This document shows, one piece after another, positions 4,881-61,885 of a DNA stretch of 62,397 bases. A program made the position numbers and the translations under genes. Source of the stretch: an uncultured Lachnospiraceae bacterium (lineage in GTDB: Bacteria; Bacillota; Clostridia; Lachnospirales; Lachnospiraceae); NCBI GenBank assembly GCA_902779575.1, contig CACZBW010000021.1:1-62397 (forward strand). Direction: 5' to 3'. Below the pieces are notes generated by a model that did no database searches, had not been told where the DNA came from, and was given only the letters and a program-made list of their open reading frames with translations. Each line of letters opens with the position of its first letter. Position 1 is the first letter of the stretch.

Positions 4881-5114
4881 GCCTTGCGTTTTGGCTAAGG
4901 CCGGCTGTCCTTCCGCCGGGCGCGGCCTTGCGTTTTAGCTACGCCGGCTGTTCTGCCGCCGGGCACAGCCTTGCGTTTCAGCTAAAGCCGGTTGTTCTGC
5001 CGCCGGGCGCAGCCTTGTATTTTAGCTAAGACCCGCTGTTCTGCCGCCGGGCGCAGCCTTGCGTTTTAGCTAAGGCTGCTGTTTTGCCGCCGGGCGCGGC
5101 CATGCGTTTTACGC
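4881..5114. repeat. 44-base imperfect tandem repeat (5-6 units)
   Basis: Fills the 313-base gap between the amidohydrolase and the fusion gene. The anchor GCCTTGCGTTTTAGCTA recurs at about 4881, 4925, 4968, 5012, 5056 and, in altered form, 5099, giving a 43-44 base period. Each unit contains CCGGC-N9-GCCGG, able to form a short hairpin. The last unit overlaps the stop codon of the fusion gene (5109-5111). The period is not a multiple of three and no frame is read through it. Confidence 0.9.
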
Positions 5115-7607: not shown

Positions 7608-7751
7608 AGCAGATTCCTCCTTGTCTTTCCCATTTATACCCACGGGTGGTCCATACTCATAGATCCGCGCGTTCAGCGCGGTGATGAGATCAGGGAAACT
7701 CCTTCGCCGCGGGATATACCTGCCGTCCCGGAAGATCAATTGGAACGAGAT

Positions 7752-45594: not shown

Positions 45595-45790
45595 CTTCCT
45601 TCCACGCTCCCGTCCTATTTTCGAATCCGTCCTCACCCAATCCGGCTAACCGCTGACACACTTTCAATTGCAACTCCTTCGGCTTCTAAACGTCTGCCGG
45701 ATCGACCTCTCCGCCTCGGCAAACTTCTATGCCGCATCGTTTATTTCTCCATTGCAAGCATTTCTGTCCCCTGTCAACCCGGCAGGCTTT

Positions 45791-46693
45791 CTAACGAACC
45801 TTCCCTGTCAGCCTTGCCAGAGTCTTTTCCAGCCTGTCCTTGATAAAAGGTCTGTCCTTCTCCTTCACCAGATAGTAAAGGTAGGATTCCTTCACCAGCT
45901 CAAGCGGCAGTCCGCGGCCCACCAGCTTAAAGTTGCGGTAGCCCCGCTCCGCGTAACTCTCGATCTCATCCGCCGTCAGGAATGCCGGGCGCTTTTTAAT
46001 CTCCGAAAAGCTCGGCTTTGCCGTCCGGTTCGGGCAGGGGAAGACCGTGCCTTTTTCAAATTCCAGCTGCATACGGGATTCGTCGGCGTAATGATCCTTG
46101 CGCTTCGGACATCCCGGAAAACAGATCTCATCCACCAGAATCTCGATCCGTCCGGCATACGGTTCAAGTGCCTTCAGCACTTCTTCATTGTGGTTCAGGT
46201 CATAATCCAGTACCACCAGCAGATAATCCCTTTCAAGCTCCTTTTCCAGTTCCTCCAGCGTGGTGATCCGCTTAGTAGTTGAAGAAATATAGGCAAAGTC
46301 CGGATACTTTCTCCTCAGGTAGTCTTCCAGCAGCTGCGTATTCACCAAAACCTGGTTTTTGCCATTGTCCGCCAGACGCATAATCAGATTGCAGTAGGTA
46401 TCCTGCAGGTGCTCCTGCTGCAGCAGAGAATTCGTCCAGGTAAAGCGCACAGGGACGTCCATCCGGTTGTAGGTGGAGATGATCTTCTCCATATCCCCTT
46501 TCGAAGTCAGGCCGAATACGGCGCGGCCGCCGTTCCAGATCGCGCCCGGAAAGGTCCCATATACACTGCCGATCCGGTAATTCTCGCGAAACTTTTCCGG
46601 ATAATCCTTCATCAGCTTTATGATGATCTGGTTCATGTAAAAGAAAACGTAGAATCCCGGCAGGTGCCAGTAGATTAGTCTCTTATCCTCCAT
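45791..46693 (-). CDS. uncharacterised protein resembling U32-type TIM-barrel proteins
   Basis: 300 residues, cytoplasmic, no signal peptide. AAGGAG precedes the ATG. The pattern suggests an alpha/beta barrel: GSVYGTFPGAIWNGGRAVFG, VRFTWTNSLL, QVLVNTQLLEDYL, EILVDEICFPGCPKRKDHYA and NFKLVGRG. The cluster of cysteines (FPGCPKR and FPCPNR) and the late LVGRG motif recall the peptidase-U32-like family, where Cys residues may bind a cofactor. I cannot name a substrate. It stands alone upstream of the xylanase gene; whether it is in the same transcript is unclear. Confidence 0.6.
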   Translation of the reverse strand: MEDKRLIYWHLPGFYVFFYMNQIIIKLMKDYPEKFRENYRIGSVYGTFPGAIWNGGRAVFGLTSKGDMEKIISTYNRMDVPVRFTWTNSLLQQEHLQDTYCNLIMRLADNGKNQVLVNTQLLEDYLRRKYPDFAYISSTTKRITTLEELEKELERDYLLVVLDYDLNHNEEVLKALEPYAGRIEILVDEICFPGCPKRKDHYADESRMQLEFEKGTVFPCPNRTAKPSFSEIKKRPAFLTADEIESYAERGYRNFKLVGRGLPLELVKESYLYYLVKEKDRPFIKDRLEKTLARLTGKVR

Positions 46694-48016: not shown

Positions 48017-49384
48017 TTATTTATTCGCCTCATCAACATAAGCCTTCCAGGTATCACGGATTGCTTCCACCTGCTCGGAGACGACAGAACCCGGAGCGAT
48101 GTTCCAAACGAACTGCTCGCCAAGGCTCAGGTTCGGGATCAGGCCGTGATAAGCGACTGTTCCATGATCTTCATCCATCATCATCGGGATGGTCTCATCG
48201 ATCGCGCGCATATCAAAGATGCCTGCCGCGGCATTGGAAAGATCCATGTAATCCTCATAGCCGGCCGGCTGATCGGTATAGAGGTTCCATGCAAATGCCA
48301 GCTTCCATGCCTTGTCGGCGTCATAGCAAGCGGGGATGGCAACCGGGTTGTTGGACCAGACGTTGATATAATCGTCTCTCTGCGGTCCCTTCGGGAACAT
48401 GACAAATCCGACTTCATCTTCCATATCCTGCAGGAAGTTTCCGGGAGTTCCGGCATATTCATCTTCTACCATGAATGCTGCCTGGCCGTTGATGAAAGCT
48501 TCCTTGTAGTAATCCCACTCTGCGCCTTCCGGATCCGGCAGGTCATACTTGGTGAACATATCGACGGTCCACTCCAGAGCCTCCAGAGTCTCCGGGCTCT
48601 CCAGATTGTAGAAATATCCGTCGTCATTCTTGCCGATGTAGGAACCGTTGTTGGAGAAGACGGCGATGGTGGTCATATTGCCTTCATTCAGAGTAAGGCC
48701 GTAAATGTCGATCACGCCGTCATTGTCGATATCGCGCTGGACAGCAGCCATCATTTCCTCAAATGCATCCCAGGTCCAGGTGCCGTCCGCCTGCATGTCA
48801 TAGATGGTCTCGGGATCGATCCCCGCGTCATTCAGCAGTCTCTTGTTGAAATATACGCCGGTACGCGGCTCTGAATAGCCTGCATACATCGCATAGATCG
48901 AATCCCCCTTGGCGTACTGCTCATGGAGCTTGTTTCTCTGGAATTTCGGAAGTGAGAAATCCAGGCAGTCCAGCGTCGCCAGGTCATACATCAGGCCGCT
49001 TGAGAGAGCTGAAGTAATCGCCGGGTCGTCACGCAGGATCCAGATATAGTTCTCATCGCCGCCCGTTGTGGCGTAATCGACAAAGTCAGCCGGTGTGGAA
49101 GTCCAGTCTGAGATCGCCTGCTGGCTGATCGTGAAATTATAAGTTTCCTGGATCCATTCCCGGTACTCATCGCGGGCTTCTTCATAGTCATTGGTCGGCT
49201 CCGCAGGATCGCCGCTCCACCAGTCACGGATTACGATGTCCATACCGCCCAGGTCAATCGGGTCGCCGTTCTCATCCGTAATCACCGTGTAGTCTTCCTC
49301 GTCGGCCATGACTGCCGATGCGCTCATCACCATCGCAGCCGCTGTAATCGCCAACAGAGCTTTTGTGAACATCTTCTGCCTCAT
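48017..49384 (-). CDS. carbohydrate ABC transporter family-1 substrate-binding protein
   Basis: 455 residues. A signal peptide (FTKALLAITAAAMVMSASAVMA) leads to an SBP_bac_1-like fold: MDIVIRDWWSGDPAEPTNDY, GVYFNKRLLNDAGIDPETIY, DGTWTWDAFEEMMAAV, AFMVEDEYAGTPGNF and MFPKGPQRDDYINVWSNNP. There is no lipobox cysteine. It captures a sugar or oligosaccharide at the cell surface for the adjacent permease pair, whose second gene ends 300 bases upstream. Palindromic element D lies between. It is the last gene of the nine-gene locus; a strong AAGGAGGG ribosome site precedes it. Confidence 0.9.
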   Translation of the reverse strand: MRQKMFTKALLAITAAAMVMSASAVMADEEDYTVITDENGDPIDLGGMDIVIRDWWSGDPAEPTNDYEEARDEYREWIQETYNFTISQQAISDWTSTPADFVDYATTGGDENYIWILRDDPAITSALSSGLMYDLATLDCLDFSLPKFQRNKLHEQYAKGDSIYAMYAGYSEPRTGVYFNKRLLNDAGIDPETIYDMQADGTWTWDAFEEMMAAVQRDIDNDGVIDIYGLTLNEGNMTTIAVFSNNGSYIGKNDDGYFYNLESPETLEALEWTVDMFTKYDLPDPEGAEWDYYKEAFINGQAAFMVEDEYAGTPGNFLQDMEDEVGFVMFPKGPQRDDYINVWSNNPVAIPACYDADKAWKLAFAWNLYTDQPAGYEDYMDLSNAAAGIFDMRAIDETIPMMMDEDHGTVAYHGLIPNLSLGEQFVWNIAPGSVVSEQVEAIRDTWKAYVDEANK

Positions 49385-49486
49385 AATAAACCCTCCTTCT
49401 GTTTTGCCGCTCCTGCAGCACCTTTAACGCTATGTTAATCTGCCGGGTCTGCTCCCGGGCAGGAATAACCTTGAATATTAACAGGT

Positions 49487-49677
49487 TACTATTCACAGCT
49501 TGTCTGACGAAAAATATGGATGCGTCATGCTTGCATGTAAGCAGCCATATTTTTCATCAGGCAAAGCCTGCGAAGCAGGAACCGTCCCCACAGCCTCAGA
49601 CAGGAGCATCGAAGATGCGGCATACGTGCGCAGCACGGATGGTCTGAGGTCTGATGGGTACGGGGCTGTGAATAGTA
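49487..49677. repeat. nested-palindrome intergenic element, copy D (191 bases)
   Basis: Perfect 13-base terminal inverted repeats TACTATTCACAGC (49487-49499) and GCTGTGAATAGTA (49665-49677). Inside are AAAAATATGG/CCATATTTTT (49510-49519 with 49545-49554), CCTGC-gaa-GCAGG, and CAGAC...GTCTG enclosing GCATC-gaa-GATGC and CGTGC-gca-GCACG. So a multi-arm fold is possible, several arms having three-base loops. It ends three bases from the permease stop codon and lies 100 bases upstream of the binding-protein gene. Confidence 0.92.
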
Positions 49678-49679
49678 CA

Positions 49680-50702
49680 CTACATCTTGATTCCGCTTGT
49701 ACTGATACTCTCTACAAATGCCCTCTGCGCGAACAGATACAGAATAATCAGGGGCATAATAATCATCAGTGTTCCCGTCGCCAGGATACAGTTGGAATAC
49801 GCAATCGACACCGTCGTCAGCACCCCCGTCATTCTCTGGATATAGGCACTGAGCGAGTCGACCAGGCGGGCAAGCCCCGTACTGACCAGCTTGATATTGC
49901 CCAGGAACATCTTGGAATAAAATCCGTCGGTCCACTGCCAGACAAATGCGAACAGGAAACAGGAAGTCACGATCGGTTTCGTCTGCGGCAGCATGACGCG
50001 GGTAAATGTCCGCAGCATCCCGCAGCCGTCCACATAAGCCGCCTCCTCCAGATCCACCGGGATATTCCGGAAGAACTGGCGGATCATAAAGATATACAGG
50101 CCGTTCTTCAGTCCCATGCAGCCCGCGCTCATCAGATAATAAGGTATGACCGAGCCGCGCAGGTTCAGCGTTCCCCCATGCACCAGCTTCACGATTCCCA
50201 GAAAATCAAAGAAGCGGAAATGCAGATGCAGGGAGCTTGCGATGGTCTGCGGCGGGATCAGGATAACCAGGATCACGCAGGCAAACCATAAACGCTTGAG
50301 CGGAAACTCAAAGCGGGCAAATCCGTAGCCAACAAGCAGGCAGACCGTGACCTGCAGAAGCGCGATCGTAAAAGAGATCACCAGCGAATTCACCAGCGCC
50401 TGCCCGTAGCTCATCAGCTCCGCCGCCAGCCTGTAATTTTCCGTTGTAAAATGCTCCGGAATCGCGATGACAATGGGATTATACAGGTCCGCCTCCGTCA
50501 TGAAGCTGACCGATATCTTGTTCAGGATCGGCTGCAGAATCATGAAGCACATCCCAAACAGCAGCAGAAATCTGCAGATCGAGACCAGATACTTGCGCAG
50601 GGTGCTCTTCAGCAAATAGCCGCCAGACAGCCGGTTGCGCTCCCGGAAACTCATTTTCTTTACGTCTGTAACAAGCTCCTTATTCGAACGGCTTTTACTC
50701 AT
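49680..50702 (-). CDS. carbohydrate ABC transporter permease, MalG type
   Basis: 340 residues with six predicted helices of the BPD_transp_1 fold. The coupling loop reads EEAAYVDGCGMLRTFTRVMLP (first 20 of these are diagnostic EAA residues). The N-terminus is extended and charged (SKSRSNKELVTDVKKMSFRE). It pairs with the MalF-type permease encoded upstream, whose stop overlaps this start by eight bases. GAGGAG precedes the ATG. No ATP-binding gene is nearby, so a shared MsmX-like ATPase elsewhere is expected. Confidence 0.9.
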   Translation of the reverse strand: MSKSRSNKELVTDVKKMSFRERNRLSGGYLLKSTLRKYLVSICRFLLLFGMCFMILQPILNKISVSFMTEADLYNPIVIAIPEHFTTENYRLAAELMSYGQALVNSLVISFTIALLQVTVCLLVGYGFARFEFPLKRLWFACVILVILIPPQTIASSLHLHFRFFDFLGIVKLVHGGTLNLRGSVIPYYLMSAGCMGLKNGLYIFMIRQFFRNIPVDLEEAAYVDGCGMLRTFTRVMLPQTKPIVTSCFLFAFVWQWTDGFYSKMFLGNIKLVSTGLARLVDSLSAYIQRMTGVLTTVSIAYSNCILATGTLMIIMPLIILYLFAQRAFVESISTSGIKM

Positions 50703-51600
50703 AATAGTAAACTCCTCTCGATATGACAGCGGACGTGATTCCGATGAAAGCCAGGATCAGGAGGAAATAGACCCAGCTCATGGCGGAAGCCAGTCCGTAA
50801 TTCATCTGCTCGATCATGACCTTCTGGATCTTTTCGATGACCGCATTGTCGGAATGCATGGAGAAATCCACGACTGTGTAGATCCAGCAGACCAGGAAGA
50901 GCGGGCTGATCATCGGAAATGTGATCTTCCACAGGCTCTCCCATTTTGTACAGCCCTCGATATCCGCCGCCTCATACATGTTGGATGGGATGCTCTGCAG
51001 GCCTGACAGAAAAATGATGATCGGAATACCCGAGGCAATCGCCACATCGTAGATATTGTCGATGATCTCGAAAAGCTTCTCGAAAGCTCTCGTGCCGACT
51101 CCGGAGGTTCTGAGGATATTCTCCAGAACCGCCGTGATGCTGATCCCCTGCGTCGTCTGTTCAATTGTATTTGCCAGATTGGCCATCAACTGGTTATTCG
51201 ATTCCAGACCGATGATAACACCCGAGGACAGGATCACCGGAAGGAAGAAAATAGCCCTCACCAGCGCTCTCCCGTGAAATTCCTGGTTCAGAATCAGAGA
51301 TACAAAGAAGCTGAACACGATGATCGCCACAGAATACAGCATCATACGGACAATCTCTTCCGTAAGCAGGCGGTTGTATTCCGGATCAACCCGGAAGGCA
51401 TGGATATAATTCGCGATCCCGGCCCAGATCGGGTTATAGTTTCCCGCGGACAGCTCCACATTGCAGAAACTCATATAGAACGACTGGGCGAGAGGTTTGA
51501 CCATGAACAGCAGAAAGCCGAGGATGAAAGGCATGATAAATAAAATCCCGGCCTTTGCCTTCTTTCTCTGAAGTCCCACATATCTCTTCCGTTGCTTCAT
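50695..51600 (-). CDS. carbohydrate ABC transporter permease, MalF type
   Basis: 301 residues from ATG 51600, which has AGGAG nine bases upstream; ATG 51618, six codons earlier, has no ribosome site. It has six predicted helices (ILFIMPFILGFLLFMVKPLA; YSVAIIVFSFFVSLILN; IIFLSGLQSIPSNM). The coupling loop is YEAADIEGCTKWESLWKITF. It forms the importer channel with the next permease gene. It lies about 220 bases downstream of the DUF5696 gene. The gap between holds a GGACAC/GTGTCC hairpin near 51624 and GC-rich sequence but no gene. Confidence 0.9.
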   Translation of the reverse strand: MKQRKRYVGLQRKKAKAGILFIMPFILGFLLFMVKPLAQSFYMSFCNVELSAGNYNPIWAGIANYIHAFRVDPEYNRLLTEEIVRMMLYSVAIIVFSFFVSLILNQEFHGRALVRAIFFLPVILSSGVIIGLESNNQLMANLANTIEQTTQGISITAVLENILRTSGVGTRAFEKLFEIIDNIYDVAIASGIPIIIFLSGLQSIPSNMYEAADIEGCTKWESLWKITFPMISPLFLVCWIYTVVDFSMHSDNAVIEKIQKVMIEQMNYGLASAMSWVYFLLILAFIGITSAVISRGVYYYE

Positions 51601-51822
51601 AAACTGCATCTCCTGCATAACCGGACACAGCAGCGTGTCCTGTATATCTCCGCGGCCTGCCGCCTCTCTTCAGGCTGGCCGGTCACCTCATGGCCAGATC
51701 TTCTCTGGCCGCACCCGGCAGTCCTCTTCTCCGGCTGACCAGCCCCGCCGGGGACCCCTTTTGCCCGCGCCCGGCCGCAACACCGCTCCGGCAGGCCTCC
51801 GCGCTCAGTTCAGCCCTGCCGC

Positions 51823-54423
51823 TTACCGGACAACCAGGTAGTCTCTGGCCGGGACCGTAATCCCGTCCGCCTGCGCGTCGCTGAACCCGTAGTTTACATA
51901 GACCTTCGTCCCGTCCGCGTACTCCGTGCGCGACAGCACCGGCGTCAGGTTCTTGTGCCCCGTCATCTCCTGATTGAAGGTATGGCCGAGCTCCTCGTCA
52001 TAACGCGCGCAGATTTCCTTCATTTCCCCGTTCCAGGCGTCGTAATCCGCCGCGTAATATTCGGTATAAAGGGTCTTCTGCAGCGCAAAGGCTGATTCCT
52101 TCATGAAGGTGAAGGACAGCCCCGCTCCGTATTCCGCTGAATACAGCAGCTCCTCCCCGGTATTCCCGCATATGTTGAGCGGCCTTCCGGTATAATTGAC
52201 TCTTCCGTGCACTGCCAGCTGCCAGAAGGGGACGCACTCGTCCAGGATCGTGTACTCGCTGCCGCGCAGATCCATGTTCGTCACCATCGAGCAGTAGGGA
52301 ACCGCATAGTCATTACCCATATTGACGCAGACCTTCGTTCCGCCTTCCGAGATCTCTTTCAGCTGCTCCTCCTGGAGCCTGCGCACCGCCTGCCGGCTGT
52401 ATGTCTTCTTCCGGTCAAAGTCCGAGGACAGGTCCATGCCCGTATCCTCAAAGGACACGCCCGTGCCGAGGGAGGAAGCCGTATTCGCCAGCCTGTCCCC
52501 CATCTTCATAGCCAGGTCCGTGTGCAGCAGATAATAGGGGTCCAGGTCATCCCGCTCGGAATAGGTCACCGTACTGTATTCCAGAAGCTTTGCCCGCTCC
52601 TTGCTGATCCGCTTCGCCGCGTCCCGGAAGGAGAAAAATCCGTCCGTAAGGCCGCTGTCAACCGCGTACTGGGTGATCCCGTTCAGGTAGAGATCCACGT
52701 CCAGATCCTCCGCGGTCTGCGACAGCTGCTTCAGTCCCTTCTTTCCGCCCATTTTAGAGAGCGGTTTGACGGAATTCAGCATCTTCTGCTTCACGCCGCC
52801 GTTGCACCAGCCGGCCAGGCGGACGGACAGGTCACCGACTCCCGCCTCGTTCAGGTCCCGGATGATTCCGTCAGCCTCGTCAAAAGTCGTCAGGACCAGA
52901 GGCCTGGAAACCGGCACGCCGGCGATCTGCTTCACCTTGTCTACCGCACCGACGATCTCGACCATCACAGGCGTCCGCTCTTCCCCGGTCAGGTCCATGG
53001 CTGCGCCGTATCTCTCCTGCAGATAGCCGCCGTAGCATTTCGCCATATCGGTGTAGTCCCCGGAATCCACAAAGCGGTAGCGCTGTACTAATGATTCGTC
53101 CGGAAGCTTCTCGATATACTGGTAAATATCACTGTTGGCGATATCACCCACGTCATATTTCTCTCTCTGGCTCACGCTGTAGACAGCATTTACATAATTA
53201 TAACTGTTGCTCCGACCGCTGATATCGGCGCGCACCGCCGCATAGGGACTTCCGTCCTCCAGAATGCAGATAAAGGAATCGTCGCCGGAAGAAATGCCGA
53301 ACACACCGCAGGTCGCCCTTGTATTGTGCACGACCGCGTCTCTTCCAAGGCACATATCCCAGCCGTAGACATTCGTATAATAGCTGCTCTGGGAAATCTT
53401 CCCGTTATTGAAATTGATGATGGCTCCGCCGCCCTCCGGCACCAGGAGATAGCCCTCGTCCATCTTTCCGCCTGCGCCGAAATAAGGCAGCGGCGTGACT
53501 GTATACATCGGGTACTCCTCTTTATACTCCATGGAGTCAAATGGAATCTCCACCACCAGATCCCCGTCCTCCAGGCGGTAAATCACCGAGACATTGAAGA
53601 TCGGCTTGTCGGACTCCTTCACGGACAGGTCCAGTTCCTTATCCGCCTCGAAATCCTCGTAAGTATAGCCGGCTTCCTCAAAATACTCCTCCATCGCCAC
53701 ACGCACATTCCCCTTTGTGGTATCGCGCAGCACATAGATCACTTCGGTTTCCAGGATCGGATACTGGGCCAGCAGTTCTTCCTCGTTATCCTTCTTTCCC
53801 AGCTTGTTGCGGTCATATTTTTTATAATACTGTCCGAGGAGCTTGACGCCCTTCTCCGCCATGGCGGAGGACCATTTCTCATATTTCTCCGCAGTCATGA
53901 CAGGCGGAATCACATATTCCCGCTCCACATCGCCCAGGGAATAATTGACCCTTACGTAATCATCCCCCTGCTCGATCTCGTAGATCCCGTTCTTCACGCT
54001 GTAGGCGTCCGTATTGAAGGCCACTTCCAGACCGGAAACAATGGAATAGGACATCAGCAGCGTGGATTCCAGACGGTTCTTCTCCTCGCTCAGCGCCAGG
54101 GTATCTGCCGCCACGCCTTCCGGGTTGGAGTTCCATACCTTGCCGCTGCTCTTCACCTCCACAGAAAACTGGGTGTCAGTGGGATCCATGGTAAACAGCA
54201 GCTTGTCATTTTCCATCACAATGGGAGCCTTGTCGCCTTCAAAGCCATAGATCCGGATAGGCTCTTCCTCCTCCGGGACAGCCCGGTAGTTCAGAATCAG
54301 CAGAATTCCCCCGGCGATCACAGCCAGAAGAATCAGCGGAAACAGCAGGCTTTTCAGCATACTGCGGACAGCCTGCTCCCTCTCGGTCTGTCGTTCAGTT
54401 TTTTGCCTTACCCCGTCCTTCAT
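51823..54423 (-). CDS. DUF5696 protein: membrane-anchored, probable glycoside-hydrolase-like enzyme
   Basis: 866 residues. A basic cytoplasmic start (KDGVRQKTERQTEREQAVR) is followed by one helix (LLFPLILLAVIAGGILLILN) and a long extracytoplasmic part. Residues about 60-480 are beta-rich (MENDKLLFTMDPTDTQFSVE; YLLVPEGGGAIINFNNGK; YTNVYGWDMCLG). Residues about 480-720 look like a TIM barrel with alternating strands and helices (RPLVLTTFDEADGIIRDLNE; VDLYLNGITQYAVDSGLTD). A beta C-terminal domain follows (TKVYVNYGFSDAQADGITV). The overall plan, a beta sandwich then a barrel, is that of several glycoside hydrolases. I cannot identify catalytic residues with certainty. The YIP1 gene ends nine bases upstream. 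Confidence 0.75.
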   Translation of the reverse strand: MKDGVRQKTERQTEREQAVRSMLKSLLFPLILLAVIAGGILLILNYRAVPEEEEPIRIYGFEGDKAPIVMENDKLLFTMDPTDTQFSVEVKSSGKVWNSNPEGVAADTLALSEEKNRLESTLLMSYSIVSGLEVAFNTDAYSVKNGIYEIEQGDDYVRVNYSLGDVEREYVIPPVMTAEKYEKWSSAMAEKGVKLLGQYYKKYDRNKLGKKDNEEELLAQYPILETEVIYVLRDTTKGNVRVAMEEYFEEAGYTYEDFEADKELDLSVKESDKPIFNVSVIYRLEDGDLVVEIPFDSMEYKEEYPMYTVTPLPYFGAGGKMDEGYLLVPEGGGAIINFNNGKISQSSYYTNVYGWDMCLGRDAVVHNTRATCGVFGISSGDDSFICILEDGSPYAAVRADISGRSNSYNYVNAVYSVSQREKYDVGDIANSDIYQYIEKLPDESLVQRYRFVDSGDYTDMAKCYGGYLQERYGAAMDLTGEERTPVMVEIVGAVDKVKQIAGVPVSRPLVLTTFDEADGIIRDLNEAGVGDLSVRLAGWCNGGVKQKMLNSVKPLSKMGGKKGLKQLSQTAEDLDVDLYLNGITQYAVDSGLTDGFFSFRDAAKRISKERAKLLEYSTVTYSERDDLDPYYLLHTDLAMKMGDRLANTASSLGTGVSFEDTGMDLSSDFDRKKTYSRQAVRRLQEEQLKEISEGGTKVCVNMGNDYAVPYCSMVTNMDLRGSEYTILDECVPFWQLAVHGRVNYTGRPLNICGNTGEELLYSAEYGAGLSFTFMKESAFALQKTLYTEYYAADYDAWNGEMKEICARYDEELGHTFNQEMTGHKNLTPVLSRTEYADGTKVYVNYGFSDAQADGITVPARDYLVVR

Positions 54424-54432
54424 AACATCTCC

Positions 54433-55242
54433 TTACAACCGGAAAAGCAGCTCCCTTGCCAGCGAAATGAAATAGCCGACTCCCTGCGAGATCATGCTGA
54501 AGAAAATCATCAGAATAAAAATCATGACCAGCATGGCGAACAGGGAAGCAACAGTGAAAAGGATATTCTTTCCGGCTGAATACTCATGAATCTGCCCCAT
54601 CGCCGCAACAATCAGAAGACCTGCCCAGATCAGGGAAATCGCCGAAAGCACAGCGTAAAACTCCGCCTCCTCCACGGTAAATCCATTGCTCAGGATCATC
54701 AGCGGAAACTGGATCAGCGGATACGGCGTCAGCGCGTAGCAGGTCGCCATATAGACCTGGTTGAGCCGTCCTTTTCCGTCAAATAGCGTCGTGAGCCCCC
54801 AGTTGCCGACAACCCAGAGGATCAGCGGAAAGAGTACGCTGGCGATATAAAGGAAAATGTTCAGCCCTTCCCAGTAAACCGTAAGGATCACAAAGCTTGT
54901 GTAGCGCAGTTTCAGAACCCGCACCAGCAGGGTCAGAAACAGAATCGTATTCGCCGCGGCCATGGTTCCCCGCTTTTCATGGGTCAGATCCCAGAAGCCG
55001 TCCAGGGGATGCGTCGCGCAGTAGAGGGCAAATTTCAGGGAATCCCAGTATTTTGCCAGACGCTCACGGCGCGCTGCTTTCGCGGACTCTCCATTTTCCA
55101 GACGCCCGCCGCGTGCTCCGCCCGCGAATCCGCCATCTGTCAGGCTCTCCCCGCGCGCTCCGCCCACGAATCCGCCATCTTCCGGCTGACCGCTGTACGC
55201 CACGCCCGCAGTTCCGCCCTTTGCGGAAGCAATCGTATCCAT
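54433..55242 (-). CDS. YIP1-family polytopic membrane protein with repeat N-terminus
   Basis: 269 residues. Residues about 18-65 contain three 14-residue repeats: GGFVGGARGESLTD, GGFAGGARGGRLEN and GESAKAARRERLAK. A juxtamembrane KYWDSLKFALYCATHPLDGF, seen in many YIP1 proteins, is followed by five predicted helices (TILFLTLLVRVLKL; TVYWEGLNIFLYIASVLFPL; ATCYALTPYPLIQF). YIP1 proteins are of unknown role in bacteria; eukaryotic relatives act in membrane traffic. The repeat units are also near-identical at DNA level (42-base period). GGAGG precedes the start. It is tightly linked to the DUF5696 gene. Confidence 0.82.
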   Translation of the reverse strand: MDTIASAKGGTAGVAYSGQPEDGGFVGGARGESLTDGGFAGGARGGRLENGESAKAARRERLAKYWDSLKFALYCATHPLDGFWDLTHEKRGTMAAANTILFLTLLVRVLKLRYTSFVILTVYWEGLNIFLYIASVLFPLILWVVGNWGLTTLFDGKGRLNQVYMATCYALTPYPLIQFPLMILSNGFTVEEAEFYAVLSAISLIWAGLLIVAAMGQIHEYSAGKNILFTVASLFAMLVMIFILMIFFSMISQGVGYFISLARELLFRL

Positions 55243-55296
55243 CCGTCCCTCCTCCCAAAACGTAGTTTGAACTTTGACTAAATGCCCCGGATGACT

Positions 55297-55345
55297 ATTT
55301 TGCTGCCACGTCTGCTGCGCTGACGCTTACATCCGTGGGCAAAAT
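55297..55345. repeat. hairpin after the NHL-repeat gene
   Basis: ATTTTGCtGCCACG and CGTGGGCAAAAT pair with one bulge around a 23-base loop, eight bases past the stop codon on the minus strand. There is no T-tract. Its position just after a stop codon matches elements A and D and the hairpin at 28287. Confidence 0.5.
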
Positions 55346-55352
55346 ATGTCTC

Positions 55353-56888
55353 CTACTTCCCGTCCCGGGATTCTTTGCCGTATTCGTAAATAAAGAAGTC
55401 ATCCGTCCGGAGCTCCTCCCTGATTTTGCGGACCCGTTTGAACACAAAAGGCACCAGGAACAGAATCAGCACCGCCGCGATGATCCAGCCAATGTGCTCC
55501 TCCACCCACTCTTTCCGGTACTGCTTGTAAGCCTTCGAGTAATTCTCGGCGTCGTACTTGACCTCGAAGTAGTCCATCGCCTCGCGGTATTTCTCCTGCC
55601 TGAGGAGGGCGCGGCCAATCCCGATATAGGCCAGGTCATAGTTACCGTCCATGACCATGACCTGCTCCCAGGCCTCCCTGGAAGCCTCATAATCGCCCTT
55701 GTCAAATTCCTCTACGGCGGTATAGACCAGCTCTCCAAAGAGTGTGGGCACAAAGCTGGTCACCGAGCAGTCCAGAGCATCCAGCACATAGAGCTCGTGC
55801 CCCATATGTTCGATGCCGACCGGCCGGCGGAAATATCCGTCCATATTGCCGTTTCCGCCGAAGGCAAATACCATGCGGCCCTGGTCGTCATAGCCGAAGA
55901 GGCGCCCGCGGTTCCGGTCCAGGCAGACGAAGATATCATTTTCCATGCAGGTTACGTCCGAGAAATAGGACGGTCCCTCATATCCGCCGCCGGAGCCCAT
56001 GTAAAGATCCCCGTAGATTCCCCATTCTCCGTTGCGGACCAGGATATCATTCCCCATCAGGTTCAGCTTGCGGACCGCGTCGGCGTTTCCGGCGCGCAGA
56101 TCATCCGCGGTAACCGCACCCGTACAGGCGTAGATAAATCCCTCATAATCCATGTACAGATTGTCATATTCCGTCGGGACAAAGGATTCCATCTGCGCCC
56201 GCTGCGCCTGAGTTGCGAAGCGTTTCCAGAGGTAATCCATAAAGTCGAAGGTTACCTTCGTAGCCCCCACAAAGCCGGAGAAAACCCCGTCATTTTCATA
56301 TTTCACAAGGCCTTTGTTGATACCGGTCGCCACGCAGTATACCCGCTCCGCCGAATCCACGGCGATCTTGTCCGGCTGAAAGGCGATCGCCGGATCCAGG
56401 GTATTGTCCACCGGTTTGTCAAACTGCATCAGATAATGAAGATCCGGATCCAGCTTGAGAATACGGGCGTTGCCCTTGTCCGCGATAAAGAAATTGCCTG
56501 CCTCGGAGACCGCGACATCCGTCGGCGCCAGAAAAGAGGTGTTCTCCACATCCCCGGTAAAGCTGTCGATAATCCGCACAATCTCCAGATTCTCCGCGGA
56601 ATGCCTGCGGATCTCAAGGATGCGGTTGTTACCGGTATCGCAGACATAGATCAGATCCCCGCTCACATAGAGACCCTGCGGGTTGTTCATGCGGGTCTCC
56701 AGACCCAGATCCGCGGAAGTAAAGACTTTGCTGACCGTGTAAAGGTCCGGGCAGTCCTGCACATCCCCCCAGTAATCATAATTGTATGTATAGGAAATAT
56801 CCTCCGCCTGAGCGGCCGCGGGAATTCCGAAAAGAATCCCGGCAAGGAACAGAAACGCTCCGGTTTTTTTCCAAAATCTCATACTCAT
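55353..56888 (-). CDS. secreted/membrane NHL-repeat protein with TPR-like segment
   Basis: 511 residues. A signal peptide (RFWKKTGAFLFLAGILFGIP) is followed by NHL-type beta-propeller repeats: NPQGLYVSGDLIYVCDTGNN, APTDVAVSEAGNFFIADKGN, KIAVDSAERVYCVATG and YFRRPVGIEHMGHELYVLDA. Then comes a short helical TPR-like stretch (DYEASREAWEQVMVMDGNYD; LLRQEKYREAMDYFEVKYD). One C-terminal helix (WIIAAVLILFLVPFVFKRV) and a charged cytoplasmic tail end it. It is therefore an outward-facing propeller anchored at its C-terminus, likely binding a ligand or partner protein. It sits between the first permease pair and the YIP1 gene. Confidence 0.85.
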   Translation of the reverse strand: MSMRFWKKTGAFLFLAGILFGIPAAAQAEDISYTYNYDYWGDVQDCPDLYTVSKVFTSADLGLETRMNNPQGLYVSGDLIYVCDTGNNRILEIRRHSAENLEIVRIIDSFTGDVENTSFLAPTDVAVSEAGNFFIADKGNARILKLDPDLHYLMQFDKPVDNTLDPAIAFQPDKIAVDSAERVYCVATGINKGLVKYENDGVFSGFVGATKVTFDFMDYLWKRFATQAQRAQMESFVPTEYDNLYMDYEGFIYACTGAVTADDLRAGNADAVRKLNLMGNDILVRNGEWGIYGDLYMGSGGGYEGPSYFSDVTCMENDIFVCLDRNRGRLFGYDDQGRMVFAFGGNGNMDGYFRRPVGIEHMGHELYVLDALDCSVTSFVPTLFGELVYTAVEEFDKGDYEASREAWEQVMVMDGNYDLAYIGIGRALLRQEKYREAMDYFEVKYDAENYSKAYKQYRKEWVEEHIGWIIAAVLILFLVPFVFKRVRKIREELRTDDFFIYEYGKESRDGK

Positions 56889-56908
56889 ATCCTGTTCTCC
56901 GGATATTT

Positions 56909-57808
56909 TTAATCTTTCAGTCCGGAACTTGCCATGGTTTCCAGTATCTGGCTTTCCGAGAAAATGAAAATCGCGATCGGTACAATCATAACCACGACCA
57001 GAACCGCCGCGCCCTGTCCGGTGCGGGCGATTCCGCCGCTCTGGATCTGCTGCAGGGCGTAGACCAGCGTCTTGCGCTCCTCAGAATAGATGTAAATGGA
57101 GGCACGGTTATTCCAGAGCGCCTGCACAGAGAAAATAATCAGGGTCATCCAGGCCGGCTTTACGTTAGGCATGACGATATTTGTAAATACCGTCCACTCG
57201 CTGGCTCCGTCAATCTTCGCCGCCTCGATCAGCGCCGAAGGCAGGCCTTCCATGAACTGCTTCATCAGGAAAAGGCCCATGGGCGACGCGAAAGCGGGAA
57301 CGATAATGGCCCAGTATGTGTCGATCCAGCCCAGTTTGTTCAGAATCAGATAGTTCGGAATCTGGGTCACATAGCCGGTGAACATCATGGCCACGGTGAC
57401 AAGCTTGAAAAATGTATTTCCGCCCGGAAATTCATATTTGGCTAGCACAAAGGCCGCCATGGACGCGACCAGCAGGTGCCCGAAGGTTCCCATAAAGGTA
57501 ATGAATACCGTGTTAAACAGATACCTGGTAAAAGTCACCCAGGATTTCCCCATGGTCACGAACAGGTCGGAGAAATTGTCCAGCGTCGGATGCTTCGGCA
57601 GAATCGTCGGAGGAAATTTAAACAGCTCGTCCAGCGGCTTCAGCGCGCTGCCGACCGCGTAGACGATCGGGAAAGCCATGATCAGGGCTACCAGCACAAG
57701 GAACAGGTACAGCACGATGTCCCCCGCAATGGAGCGGTTTGGTTTCCGCCTCCGCAGGAGCTTTTTCCGGTAAACCTCCTGGGAAGGATTCGTCTTCTTC
57801 TTACTCAC
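56909..57808 (-). CDS. carbohydrate ABC transporter permease, MalG type (first pair)
   Basis: 299 residues with a basic N-terminus (LLRRRKPNRSIAGDIVLYLF), six predicted helices and the coupling loop IEAAKIDGASEWTVFTNIVM. The helices include LVLVALIMAFPIVYAVGSAL and LLVASMAAFVLAKYEFPG. It pairs with the MalF-type protein encoded just upstream; the ATG overlaps that gene's stop by four bases. No ATPase is encoded in the locus. Confidence 0.92.
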   Translation of the reverse strand: MSKKKTNPSQEVYRKKLLRRRKPNRSIAGDIVLYLFLVLVALIMAFPIVYAVGSALKPLDELFKFPPTILPKHPTLDNFSDLFVTMGKSWVTFTRYLFNTVFITFMGTFGHLLVASMAAFVLAKYEFPGGNTFFKLVTVAMMFTGYVTQIPNYLILNKLGWIDTYWAIIVPAFASPMGLFLMKQFMEGLPSALIEAAKIDGASEWTVFTNIVMPNVKPAWMTLIIFSVQALWNNRASIYIYSEERKTLVYALQQIQSGGIARTGQGAAVLVVVMIVPIAIFIFSESQILETMASSGLKD

Positions 57809-58743
57809 GTGCCAACCCTCCTTAACAGACTCTGGATTGCCTTATTGCAGAGGATCATGATCAGGAACAGGATCGTCGCGATCGCGCAGGCGTATCCCAT
57901 CTCAAATCTCGAAAAACCGTAGTCAAACAGATGCGTGACGATCGTCCGTGCCGCGTAGTCGGTACTCGGATAACCGCACAGCGCCATCGTGACATCGCAT
58001 ACGCCGAATGCCTGCGTGATCGACATGACGGCGCCGAACAGGAGCATCGGCTTCATGCTCGGGAGGGTAATGTACCAGAGCTCCTGCCAGCGGTTTTTTA
58101 TGCCGTCCATACAGCCCGCTTCAAGCAGGGTGCGGTCCACACCCTGAAGGCCTGCGACAAAAGACAGGAAGCCCTGGCCCAGGCTCATCCAGAGGATGAC
58201 CAGCATACAGATCGGAAGCATGTAGGTGGGATCAATCAGCCAGAGCTTCGGTGCGTCGATGATACCCATATTCATCAGGAGCGCGTTCGCATGTCCGTAG
58301 GCGTCGCCCCGGAAAAATACAGAGAAGATTACGTAGCAGTTGCCCGCAATCGACGGCGCGTAAAAGACAATAACAGCAACCGAGCGCACCCAGCGGGGCA
58401 GCTCATTGATCAGCCAGGCAAAAATGAAGGACAGAATATATCCCAGCGGCCCCGTAATGATAGCGATCATGAAGGTATTCTTGATACTGATCAGGAAGAT
58501 ATCATCCTCCAGAATCAGCTTGATATAATTCTGGAAGCCCACAAAGCGCGGCGTCTCCAGAATATTGTAATAAGTGAAGCTCAGGCAGATCGAGGCGACC
58601 ACCGGAAATACAAAGAACATGGCGAAAAGAATGGCATAGGGCGCCAGGAAGAGATAGCACATCTTCCTCTGCTTCGCCTTTTTCAGCATGACCCGGAAAT
58701 TATGCCTGCGCAGGGCTATATATTTCTTGAAAAATTCACTCAT
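57805..58743 (-). CDS. carbohydrate ABC transporter permease, MalF type (first pair)
   Basis: 312 residues from ATG 58743; a GTG three codons earlier is an alternative. Six predicted helices (YLFLAPYAILFAMFFVFPVV; FMIAIITGPLGYILSFIFAW; YMLPICMLVILWMSLGQGFL). The coupling loop is LEAGCMDGIKNRWQELWYI. It forms a channel with the adjacent MalG-type permease. It follows the large binding-protein gene across a gap that contains 71-base repeats. Confidence 0.92.
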   Translation of the reverse strand: MSEFFKKYIALRRHNFRVMLKKAKQRKMCYLFLAPYAILFAMFFVFPVVASICLSFTYYNILETPRFVGFQNYIKLILEDDIFLISIKNTFMIAIITGPLGYILSFIFAWLINELPRWVRSVAVIVFYAPSIAGNCYVIFSVFFRGDAYGHANALLMNMGIIDAPKLWLIDPTYMLPICMLVILWMSLGQGFLSFVAGLQGVDRTLLEAGCMDGIKNRWQELWYITLPSMKPMLLFGAVMSITQAFGVCDVTMALCGYPSTDYAARTIVTHLFDYGFSRFEMGYACAIATILFLIMILCNKAIQSLLRRVGT

Positions 58744-58790
58744 ATATATCACTCTCTCGCCAAATCGTCATCTTGCTGCTATCGTCTGTG

Positions 58791-58960
58791 ATCCAGCGGA
58801 ATGCCGGTTTCCCGGCTCCAGACTCTGTTTCTCACAGCGCGTCCGGCACTGCTGCCATCTCATCCGTCGGCATACCGGACTCCCGTCTCCCGTCTCCGTT
58901 TCCTCACAACTCTCCCGACACTTTCTTCGCTCAATCCACCGGCATGCCGAATTCCAGTCT
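58791..58960. repeat. 71-base imperfect tandem repeat overlapping a gene end
   Basis: Three units anchored at TCCAGCGG (58792), TCCGTCGG (58863) and TCCACCGG (58935). On the minus strand each begins GGA-N3-CGG(T/C)AT(G/T)CCG-N2-GGAT. The first unit encodes the end of the 984-residue binding protein (EFGMPVD and stop); the other two lie outside the gene and fill the gap to the permease start. Confidence 0.8.
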
Positions 58961-61885
58961 CTTCTTGCGGATCTCCTCATCGATCTTGATGGAATAATCG
59001 ATGATCGTCTCACGCGAATCTTCCTTGAAGGTCAGCACGCGCCGGATGGCGTTCGAAATATGGCGTCCGGTAAAATAGCCGCCGGGCACTTCGCGGATCC
59101 CGCGGGTCCAGTCCCACTGCCTGTTCAGCACGTCGATATCGTCCATGCTCCAGGACAGATTGGAAAATGCGTCCCGGTTCGCTGTCGCATATCTTGCGGA
59201 AGAGCCAAGCAGGGCCTCAATTTCCCGCCCGAACTGGATCTGCGTATCCGGGGCTGCCCACCATTTCATGAACTCCCAGGATTTCTGCCGAAGCGCTTCA
59301 TCCTCCGTGGAAATCATCATGGTCGCCGAGCCGGTTATGAAATCCGACCGGTCGATATAAGTTTCCCCGTTCTCATCCACCCGCTCGGTCCCGGGAATCA
59401 GGGTGAAATCCCACAAGCCGCGGATTTCCGGAGCGGAAACCATCAGCGTATTGTAGGTGGAATAAGCCGCGATACCGATGGGCATCTCCCCGGAACGGAA
59501 ACGGCTCACAAAATCGTAAACCGTGGGAATTCCGTAGTCATTGAAATAGCGGACATAATCGTCAAATGCCCTGATGCCTGCCTCATTGTCCACCGTAGTC
59601 CGCGTCCCCGCCTCGTTGTACAGATCTCCTCCGTACTGGAAGAGCAGAGCGAAATACAGCGACAAATCCGGCACATTGGACATGATAGCGGTCGTCGCCG
59701 CGGCAGAAGCACTGCTGCCTGCCGCCGTCGGGATGCCGACCGAGAGGTTATTCCCCTGAATCGTCGGGAACATCTCAATCAGTTCGCGGAAGGTCTGCGG
59801 GACGGTAAGTTCCAGATCCTCCAGCACATCCTTCCGGTAGAACATGACATTGAAGGTCTGCGTCTCCGGGATGGCGTAAATGTGCTCATCCAGCCGGTAC
59901 TGCTCATAGGAGCTCTCCGAATAGTGGGAAAGCACCTCCTCCCAGCCGTCAAACTGTGTGAGATCCTCGACAGCGTTTCGCAGCGCGTAGTTAACCGGCT
60001 GGTCCGCGCCGGCGGAAAGCACCACATTCGGTCCCCGCCCCGCAAGAACTGCGTTCAGAAGAGCCGAAGGATCGACGATCTCCACATTTACTTTGACGCC
60101 GGTATCCGGCGTGAAGCTCTCATCCACCAGCGACTTCAGGATCGTACCCTGGTCACGGCCGGTGAGGATCCAGACTTTGACGACTTCGTCCTTCGCTTCA
60201 TCCTTGTAGACATCGCCCACCGAATTGTAATCGACAAAGAAGGAGGCGATGAAGGAACGAAGCTCATGCTTCAGGTTCCGGAAGAAATTCGTCTTTTCCT
60301 TCTTCGGCGTGACGTCCGCGCCGCTGACCACCAGATAATCCACGTCCAGCTGCGTATCGCGCATGTTCAGGGCAGCGGTGCCCAGGGCAGTGATATTGTC
60401 CTTGAAATTGATAAATTCCAGCGTAATCTTGTTCGGCTTTTCGCAGAAGCGCTCCATCTGCTGGGCAACGGTCTGGGCGGCGGCGATATTGCCGGCCTTC
60501 TGGCCGCTGTAGGCCACCATGTCGTCCACGATCTTGTACAGGCGCTTCGACTCCAGATCCATGGCTTCCATGATCTCCGGATACATATTTTCAATATGAT
60601 AATCACGGTAGACGTCCGGATTCGGTCCGGTATAGACCAGAATCCGGCGGTAAATCTGATTCAGCCTGAAAGTGGAGTCCTCGAGGTCCTCCAGGATCTG
60701 GCCCATGCCGCCCAGAGTCGCCTCCAGCCGGATCGTATGCTTTCCTTCGGTCAGGAAAAAACGGTAAGGTGTACCATCTTCATCCGCCAGTTCCTTGCAT
60801 TCCCAGTCATTCCGGAAATCGAAGGAAACCTCCCGCATCGCATCGAATGGAACCTTCCCGTCCAGCAGCACCGTCCTGCTCGAGACACTGCCTCGGGAAT
60901 AATTCTGCCGGCCCTTGATCAGGAGATTGTAATAGCCGTCCGCCGGCACCTCAAATTCCCATTCGATCCACTGTCCGCTGCTTCTCCAGGGCTCACCGCC
61001 GATATAATTCAGCACCGTATGGGTGACGGAATTCGGAACGGTAGTTGGCGAAGAACGGTCATATTTCGCATAAAGGGAAGACTCCGAGCGGTTCGTCGAT
61101 TCCTCCCCCTGGACATTCAGAAGAAATTCCGCAGCAGCCGGATTCCCAGGATCCGCCGGCTGCTCCGCCAGGTACTCCTCATAGCTCTTATCTTTGGCCG
61201 GTGCCGCGAGAGTCAGCTTCCGGATCACCATCGGCTCATTCTCCGCGCGCAGGGCGATCGTATTCTTCCCCTTCTCACACCAGAAAAGATAAGGTTCAAT
61301 AATATATCCCATATCATCCCGGAACAGAGCGCTCTGCCAGTCATAGACCTCCACCTGGCGGGCACGGATCTGGTTCCCCTGATTGTCCGTGCGGACCGGG
61401 CCGCCGTCCGTCCAGATTCTGGAAAATGCAATGCTCCTGGCGTCCTCAAACGGCAGCTCGCCGTTCACATAGACCGCCCGCTCCGCCGCGACGCCGCGCG
61501 ATTCGGGCAGCAGATACTCTATATACAGATTGTAAAAACCTTCCTCCGGAATATCGGCCGTCCAGGTAACCATGGATCCTGTATCCGTAAACAGGGCCTT
61601 CTCCTCGTCATGAAAATTCTCACGGACCTCGACCGTACCTTCGCTGTCGTAGTCAAAGAGGTCCAGATCGACAGAAGCCTCCGCTTCCTGCCCGCCCTCA
61701 TGTTCCGCCAGATAGCCGCCATAAGTCCCTTCCCGCTTCAGTCCGACCACATCCTGCGTCAGATCCGTATCGGCATACTTATAGGCAAAGCTTTCCACAC
61801 GGTTCATGGACATGGCAATACCCGCCCCGGCCACTGCAGCCGCCGCGAGTACCCCGATGAGAATTTTCGTTCCGGTCTTATTCAT
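58931..61885 (-). CDS. large extracellular substrate-binding protein with two N-terminal carbohydrate-binding-like modules
   Basis: 984 residues, over twice a normal sugar-binding protein. A signal-anchor-like start (TKILIGVLAAAAVAGAGIAM) has no lipobox cysteine. Two galactose-binding-like beta modules follow: about 80-240 (MVTWTADIPEEGFYNLYIEY, ERAVYVNGELPFEDARSIAF) and about 270-400 (QWIEWEFEVPADGYYNLLIK, SSRTVLLDGKVPFDAMREVS). A helical linker (about 400-570) precedes an SBP_bac_1 domain: VVKVWILTGRDQGTILKSLV, VNVEIVDPSALLNAVLAGRG, QTFNVMFYRKDVLEDLELTV, GEMPIGIAAYSTYNTL and IMKWWAAPDTQ-like end. It is first in the locus with its own promoter. The modules would tether a polysaccharide while the lobes capture the released sugar. 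Confidence 0.88.
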   Translation of the reverse strand: MNKTGTKILIGVLAAAAVAGAGIAMSMNRVESFAYKYADTDLTQDVVGLKREGTYGGYLAEHEGGQEAEASVDLDLFDYDSEGTVEVRENFHDEEKALFTDTGSMVTWTADIPEEGFYNLYIEYLLPESRGVAAERAVYVNGELPFEDARSIAFSRIWTDGGPVRTDNQGNQIRARQVEVYDWQSALFRDDMGYIIEPYLFWCEKGKNTIALRAENEPMVIRKLTLAAPAKDKSYEEYLAEQPADPGNPAAAEFLLNVQGEESTNRSESSLYAKYDRSSPTTVPNSVTHTVLNYIGGEPWRSSGQWIEWEFEVPADGYYNLLIKGRQNYSRGSVSSRTVLLDGKVPFDAMREVSFDFRNDWECKELADEDGTPYRFFLTEGKHTIRLEATLGGMGQILEDLEDSTFRLNQIYRRILVYTGPNPDVYRDYHIENMYPEIMEAMDLESKRLYKIVDDMVAYSGQKAGNIAAAQTVAQQMERFCEKPNKITLEFINFKDNITALGTAALNMRDTQLDVDYLVVSGADVTPKKEKTNFFRNLKHELRSFIASFFVDYNSVGDVYKDEAKDEVVKVWILTGRDQGTILKSLVDESFTPDTGVKVNVEIVDPSALLNAVLAGRGPNVVLSAGADQPVNYALRNAVEDLTQFDGWEEVLSHYSESSYEQYRLDEHIYAIPETQTFNVMFYRKDVLEDLELTVPQTFRELIEMFPTIQGNNLSVGIPTAAGSSASAAATTAIMSNVPDLSLYFALLFQYGGDLYNEAGTRTTVDNEAGIRAFDDYVRYFNDYGIPTVYDFVSRFRSGEMPIGIAAYSTYNTLMVSAPEIRGLWDFTLIPGTERVDENGETYIDRSDFITGSATMMISTEDEALRQKSWEFMKWWAAPDTQIQFGREIEALLGSSARYATANRDAFSNLSWSMDDIDVLNRQWDWTRGIREVPGGYFTGRHISNAIRRVLTFKEDSRETIIDYSIKIDEEIRKKRLEFGMPVD

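Follow-up and report, generated by a model that had tools for sequence, protein, structure and literature searches.

Nine genes, all on the minus strand, occupy positions 48017-61885 of the window, by which we mean the whole 62,397-nucleotide stretch of DNA that was analysed. They stand in the order first described, with the parts of two importers on either side of an NHL-repeat protein, a YIP1 protein and a DUF5696 protein (Table 1). ORF coordinates and Pfam matches, among them BPD_transp_1 above cut-off in four proteins, bear out this layout and its families. The genes had been called closely spaced or overlapping; several intergenic gaps measure 100-300 bp, with 204 bp between the DUF5696 gene and the next permease gene and 295 bp ahead of the last binding-protein gene. 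A chance neighbourhood of nine genes is ruled out, as the same order recurs across the phylum. Rfam and tRNA scans of the window gave no match. Elsewhere in the window, both on the minus strand, lie an 876-aa ORF (5109-7739) with xylose-isomerase-like TIM barrel and AMP-binding enzyme domains, and a gene (28311-30788) for an 825-aa protein with an FHA domain, an ABC ATPase and an ABC-2 membrane domain.

Table 1 Genes of the nine-gene unit and its downstream neighbours in the window
Feature	Positions	Strand	Family evidence
Giant solute-binding protein (SBPg), 984 aa, XloE-like	58931..61885	-	SBP_bac_8/1 Pfam match
Importer 1 permease a (P1a), XloF-like	57805..58752	-	BPD_transp_1 1.6e-10; EAA loop EAGCMDG
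Importer 1 permease b (P1b), XloG-like	56909..57808	-	BPD_transp_1 7.9e-14; EAA loop EAAKIDG
NHL-repeat propeller, part 1 of 'X'	55353..56888	-	NHL 9.9e-13, 47.9 bits, cut-off 20
YIP1-domain membrane protein, part 2 of 'X'	54433..55242	-	Yip1 9.4e-11, 42.3 bits, cut-off 28.6
DUF5696 protein, membrane anchor and GH129-fold ectodomain	51823..54423	-	644 bits, cut-off 25.6
Importer 2 permease a (P2a), AxoF-like	50695..51618	-	BPD_transp_1 5.1e-8; EAA loop EAADIEG
Importer 2 permease b (P2b), AxoG-like	49680..50702	-	BPD_transp_1 1e-9; EAA loop EAAYVDG
Second, small solute-binding protein (SBPs), 455 aa, AxoE-like	48017..49384	-	SBP_bac_1 7.6e-13
Companion protein, no family assigned, flanked by the unit and the GH10-GH5 gene; not claimed as a unit member	45791..46693	-	
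GH10-GH5 protein, downstream of the unit	42667..45636	-	Pfam GH10 4.3e-55, GH5 6.6e-64

Each importer consists of a MalE-type solute-binding protein (SBP) and two MalF/MalG-type permeases, the composition of the CUT1 class. Pfam finds no ABC ATPase among the nine proteins, in agreement with the initial description of two ATPase-less importers of carbohydrate type. In NCBIfam, the giant SBP and the permeases match known importers of sugars at scores below the equivalog cut-offs. All four window permeases carry the ATPase-docking EAA loop, the core of which is present in relatives of P1a (168/168), P1b (141/168), P2a (144/197) and P2b (177/192). On another contig of the same genome, two OB_MalK matches lie close together, one above the curated cut-off (G000:C11, 17920) and one below it (19101); these MalK/MsmX-type proteins are candidates for the ATPase of both importers. 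CUT1 importers with a shared MsmK/MsmX ATPase are likewise made of an SBP and two permeases without their own ATPase, whereas here two importers are held in one unit and one SBP is about twice the usual size. This giant SBP comprises an N-terminal membrane helix, two beta-sandwich regions that are CBM35-like in many relatives, a helical bundle and a maltose-binding-protein-type SBP domain; among the matches listed, which the SBP domain filled, its N-terminal half had no fold match of its own. The lipobox pattern is without a match in 139 of 150 copies of the giant SBP and is present in 100 of 139 small SBPs encoded directly after P2b. The window's small SBP (start 49384) has a hydrophobic, signal-like N-terminus and no lipobox match.

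The DUF5696 protein had been proposed to be a membrane-tethered glycosidase, and both an N-terminal anchor and a GH129 fold spanning residues 67-866 are found; a fold unrelated to sugar enzymes is thereby ruled out. The Lys/Arg-rich N-terminus suggests that the ectodomain faces outward. Homology to characterised GH129 proteins is evident from profile matches to 5opq (5.5e-14) and 5wzn (1.1e-10), with 98.5% in hhalign to a NagBb-like pair. In GH129 enzymes an Asp acts as nucleophile and a Glu as acid/base. When these columns are read from NagBb-aligned positions, the window protein keeps the Asp (D660) and has the Glu replaced (N701). Among 200 DUF5696 proteins (204 less four near-identical rows), the Asp is kept in 130, the window included, and the Glu in 29; both acids occur together in 8, or 18 on a lenient count. 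By conservation the acid/base column comes 163rd among the 273 columns of the barrel, and other barrel residues remain conserved. Most window-like proteins have Asn at this position (60 of 70), most of the next group have Lys (13 of 21), and 26 of the 109 proteins in the distant group have Glu; the homologues of the Anaerocellum bescii type (L241 and six others of that genus) have neither acid. The earlier proposal of a working glycosidase fares badly against a Glu missing from 171 of 200 proteins, and the window protein is probably a former sugar-cutting enzyme without its cutting residues, although the Asp in 130/200 and the Glu in 26/109 of the distant group leave activity possible in some members. 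DUF5696 proteins thus differ from the GH129 glycosidases NagBb (5wzn) and ZgGH129 (5opq) in their N-terminal membrane anchor and in the widespread loss of the catalytic pair. A search with Pfam GH129 (PF11308) at E 1e-20 gave no match in 199 genomes and likewise none in controls, and is therefore uninformative on absence.

PF18952, the DUF5696 profile, matches at E <= 1e-50 in 41 of 398 genomes of the phylum and 63 of 299 genomes of the family; up to three candidates per genome were scored in the phylum set and four in the family set, so that copy numbers are lower bounds. A weak cross-match below the cut-off appeared in 2 of 14 control genomes. All 64 rows of the phylum set were examined, and of the 105 in the family set one is the window, 64 were examined and 40 middle-to-low-scoring rows were left out; locus L073 is common to both sets. 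A third set of named loci, the best 80 of at least 580 and hence biased towards close relatives, comes mostly from Lachnospiraceae including Butyrivibrio, and also from other Clostridia, a Christensenella bin and a Treponema bin. The Treponema bin holds a complete nine-gene unit (L207:3079-15923); the unit may have crossed phyla, and a binning error is also possible. Of the 19 genomes of the window's genus that were searched, two give a strong PF18952 match, one of them being the window's own, so the unit is dispensable. Genome G416 has three DUF5696 copies (L138, L139 and L140); after the latter two come very large ORFs, of 1611 and 1864 aa. None of 14 pattern matches in viral_contigs encodes a relative. 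Of 120 family genomes, 22 have an NHL protein of the window type (E <= 1e-60), and every one of these is DUF5696-positive; at least one DUF5696-positive genome (G441) has no NHL at this threshold, and one NHL match (G468:C143) lies on a contig without a listed DUF5696.

The linkage of DUF5696 to YIP1, NHL and ABC genes, on which the first-pass annotation was built, appears as nearly constant adjacency across all three locus sets. A YIP1 or fused NHL-YIP1 gene lies directly upstream (<300 bp) in 62 of 64 phylum loci, the two misses being a locus cut by a contig end (L233) and one with YIP1 302 bp away (L249), and a permease gene lies directly downstream in 62 of 64, with contig ends at both misses. 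Corresponding counts are 62/64 and 60/64 in the family set, where L273 (upstream) and L268 and L274 (downstream) miss at contig ends, and 80/80 and 77/80 among the named loci (best 80 of at least 580), whose three misses are contig or stretch ends. Real exceptions are L275, in which a divergent, shorter DUF5696 has importer genes nearby and neither NHL nor YIP1, and L272, in which the importer 2 permeases sit at the opposite end of the unit. The exact order SBPg-P1a-P1b-NHL/YIP1-DUF5696-P2a-P2b is kept in 31/64 phylum, 50/64 family and 60/80 named loci, again the best 80 of at least 580. In 21 of the 64 phylum loci the stretch that was fetched does not include SBPg, so the importers are not always adjacent, and SBPg genes are found elsewhere in 8/8 genomes tested that have SBPg-less DUF5696 loci.

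Besides its propeller, the NHL protein has a TPR-like stretch (TPR_16 3.2e-4, below the Pfam cut-off) and a C-terminal membrane helix (hydrophobic segment 465-483); the YIP1 protein has four hydrophobic segments. The two form a single polypeptide in 57 ORFs of relatives, a fusion seen in 42/64 phylum loci, 15/64 family loci and 0/80 of the named loci, themselves the best 80 of at least 580. Pfam detects no signalling domain in either protein at E up to 0.1, and we know of no scaffold function for YIP1 or for an NHL protein of the present type. The ligand-sensing propeller, the membrane-organising YIP1 and the single physical machine of the first-pass annotation are conjectural.

To follow inheritance of the parts, identities were compared among 80 complete units, giving 1540 unit pairs with all nine parts. 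Between parts, pairwise identities are correlated at 0.87-0.97 for all nine, and eight parts still correlate at 0.90-0.97 once genome-pair means are removed, so that species relatedness cannot account for the remaining correlation. When one part was shuffled among the units within each of 16 genomes that carry two or three complete ones, the observed co-inheritance was reached in 0 of 300 shuffles for each of four part pairs tried. Neither the correlations nor the shuffles show a sign of part exchange between paralogous units. Operon linkage explains part of this co-inheritance, which tight linkage alone also predicts. The parts diverge at unequal rates: median identity is highest for the importer 1 permeases (P1a 0.53, P1b 0.50), followed by SBPg (0.37), P2a and P2b (0.36), NHL (0.34) and YIP1 (0.30), and lowest for the two most variable parts, DUF5696 (0.26) and the small SBP (0.21).

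For the substrate we turned to flanking genes within ~10 kb of DUF5696, which were clustered, with one representative of each of 20 clusters scanned; the grouping by DUF5696 identity started from 156 rows (160 less four near-identical rows). Of the 68 loci with a DUF5696 at least 45% identical to that of the window, 24 have GH10 nearby, 17 GH43, 5 a second GH43 cluster, 8 GH5, 5 GH115 and 1 GH67, with no GH26, CBM65 or GH130. At 35-45% identity (18 loci) the counts are GH10 5 and GH43, GH5, GH67 and GH130 2 each; below 35% (69 loci) they are CBM65 17, GH26 16, GH130 12 and GH10, GH43 and GH67 2 each. Xylan enzymes therefore accompany the window branch, and mannan enzymes accompany many of the distant units. 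This split is unclean: Anaerocellum-type units, at 26% DUF5696 identity, sit in a xylan locus, and of two loci in that genus L126 has a GH43 protein after it and L127 a GH26 protein. In the window itself, the GH10-GH5 gene, whose GH10 cluster recurs at related loci, points to a xylan or glucan substrate. AraC-type regulators flank 27 of the 68 window-like loci.

Two further features of these flanks are recorded here in their own right. The 300-aa companion protein, without a Pfam match and with chance-level NCBIfam matches, belongs to a family found 70 times across 42 of the 209 loci scanned, often with more than one copy beside the unit at a given locus. The family conserves a CxxxC motif along with other Cys/His residues and is possibly a metal or Fe-S enzyme. 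A MacAB-like set lies downstream in 18-19 of the 68 window-like loci (for example L148:9568-10698, L086:16679-18832 and L202:19613-22414), with a 930-aa FtsX-type permease and two HlyD-like families, one representative of which is above the Pfam cut-off and one just below.

For one genus, part of the unit is already known. The xylan degradation locus (XDL) of Caldicellulosiruptor (Anaerocellum) bescii, Athe_0174-0185, contains two CUT1 importers in an operon xloEFG-X-GH129-axoFGE-xynF... that is controlled by XynR and AraR and responsive to xylan and Avicel (PMC8579813, Table 3; publications are cited here from excerpts). Proximal XDL genes are among those raised ~10- to 100-fold on xylan versus cellobiose in RNA-seq, and MsmK (Athe_1803) is the shared ATPase (PMC8579813), used also by other A. 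bescii oligosaccharide importers (PMC12838199, PMC12710961). A XynR operator sits upstream of Athe_0174 (PMC12285236, Table 3). We find the exact published operator, a 20-mer, once each in three of seven genomes of one genus having the unit, at ~150 bp (two genomes) or 90 bp (one) from the longest ORF of the first gene; the reversed operator occurs in none of the seven. The operator-bearing loci (L240-L242) read SBPg, P1a, P1b, NHL-YIP1, DUF5696, P2a, P2b, SBPs, and operator and matching gene order together identify X as the NHL-YIP1 protein and 'GH129' as DUF5696.

The window has the gene order xloEFG-X-GH129-axoFGE with X split into two genes: the transport half of the XDL has the same parts in the same order, and xylan-enzyme genes lie downstream in both. 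They differ in that NHL and YIP1 form one gene in the XDL, and in that the XDL DUF5696, 26% identical, lacks both catalytic acids whereas that of the window retains the Asp. The excerpted text of PMC8579813 leaves X unnamed and treats the importers as two systems. Its Table 3 already lists the A. bescii DUF5696 homologue as GH129 in a xylan operon, so that the earlier statement that the middle trio has no assigned function gives way for this member. Our literature search found no paper on DUF5696, nor on YIP1 or NHL in a glycan-importer context. Two other A. bescii loci were considered as the present unit and rejected: in athe_0595-0598, a cello-oligosaccharide locus, a GH5 gene adjoins (PMC12838199), and in Athe_0085-0091, Athe_0089 is an endoxylanase (PMC5865380). 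Within the 512 bases between the first gene of the window unit and the contig end at 62397, the XynR site, in a degenerate reading, has no match; it has three matches elsewhere in the window against 1.35 expected, and another regulator may act here. From the enzyme neighbours, the operator in relatives and the A. bescii operon (PMC8579813), the glycan handling first proposed for this locus can be narrowed to xylan.

We propose, with a probability of roughly 0.55, that the locus is a member of a conserved nine-gene glycan-uptake unit for xylan oligosaccharides in which DUF5696 is a glycan-binding part and NHL-YIP1 a scaffold. Extracellular xylanases would release oligosaccharides from xylan, and the sandwich domains of the giant SBP, together with a DUF5696 pocket that has mostly lost its catalytic pair and would bind rather than cut, would hold the fragments near the membrane. 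The two SBP domains would then hand fragments to the two permease pairs, a shared MsmX/MsmK-type ATPase would power both importers, and the NHL-YIP1 protein would keep the tethered parts and both importers together. Protein families, neighbouring genes and published induction underlie the claims of import and substrate class; the receptor and scaffold roles we infer.

Three other accounts deserve weighing. The two importers may be independent and ordinary, merely co-transcribed, with DUF5696 and NHL-YIP1 in a separate role such as envelope upkeep on fibre; CUT1 importers do function alone elsewhere (PMC12838199), and the SBPg-permease module lies away from the DUF5696 core in 21/64 loci. The near-unbroken adjacency of NHL/YIP1, DUF5696 and the importer 2 permeases (real exceptions are L272 and L275), the co-inheritance among paralogous units and the NHL-YIP1 fusion make this unlikely in our view. 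DUF5696 may instead be an active GH129-type retaining alpha-glycosidase, tethered to the membrane and trimming oligosaccharide side groups at the surface, as the GH129 label in A. bescii implies and as would suit the fold over residues 67-866, the Asp in 130/200 proteins and the window, both acids in 8 (leniently 18) of 200 and the glycan-degrading neighbours. An acid/base Glu in only 29/200, at a column of rank 163 of 273 that is Asn in 60/70 window-like proteins and Lys in 13/21 of the next group, and the lack of either acid in the A. bescii-type homologues (L241 and six others) render such an enzyme distinctly unlikely.

It is very improbable that the unit serves for sensing, with the NHL propeller and a dead glycosidase detecting glycan and signalling through YIP1 to transport or transcription. 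A pocket mostly without its catalytic pair and a propeller on a membrane helix would fit that role, but Pfam assigns no signalling domain to the NHL or YIP1 protein at E up to 0.1, AraC-type regulators stand at 27/68 window-like loci, and the control known in A. bescii is the LacI-family XynR (PMC12285236).

A wider version is offered more tentatively, as a possibility that we do not favour outright: an unrecognised fibre-uptake machine, carried by many Firmicutes, in which an NHL-YIP1 scaffold joins two importers sharing one distant ATPase and a GH129 fold has turned into a tethered receptor, with the receptor and small SBP evolving fastest and setting the polysaccharide (xylan or mannan) and importer 1 staying constant. 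Sus-type uptake in Bacteroidetes is likewise a multi-part surface system for glycan capture and import, with units per polysaccharide; the present unit differs in using ABC importers at the cytoplasmic membrane only, and we know of no protein family common to the two. If the proposal is true, this surface machine would be the single-membrane equivalent of Sus. Accounts of how Gram-positive fibre degraders take up glycans usually treat importers singly; a conserved unit that couples two of them with a little-explored NHL-YIP1 membrane protein and a GH129 fold mostly unfit for catalysis would account for the unnamed X and for the questionable GH129 label in a well-studied cellulolytic thermophile, and DUF5696 would serve annotators as a marker of hemicellulose uptake loci.
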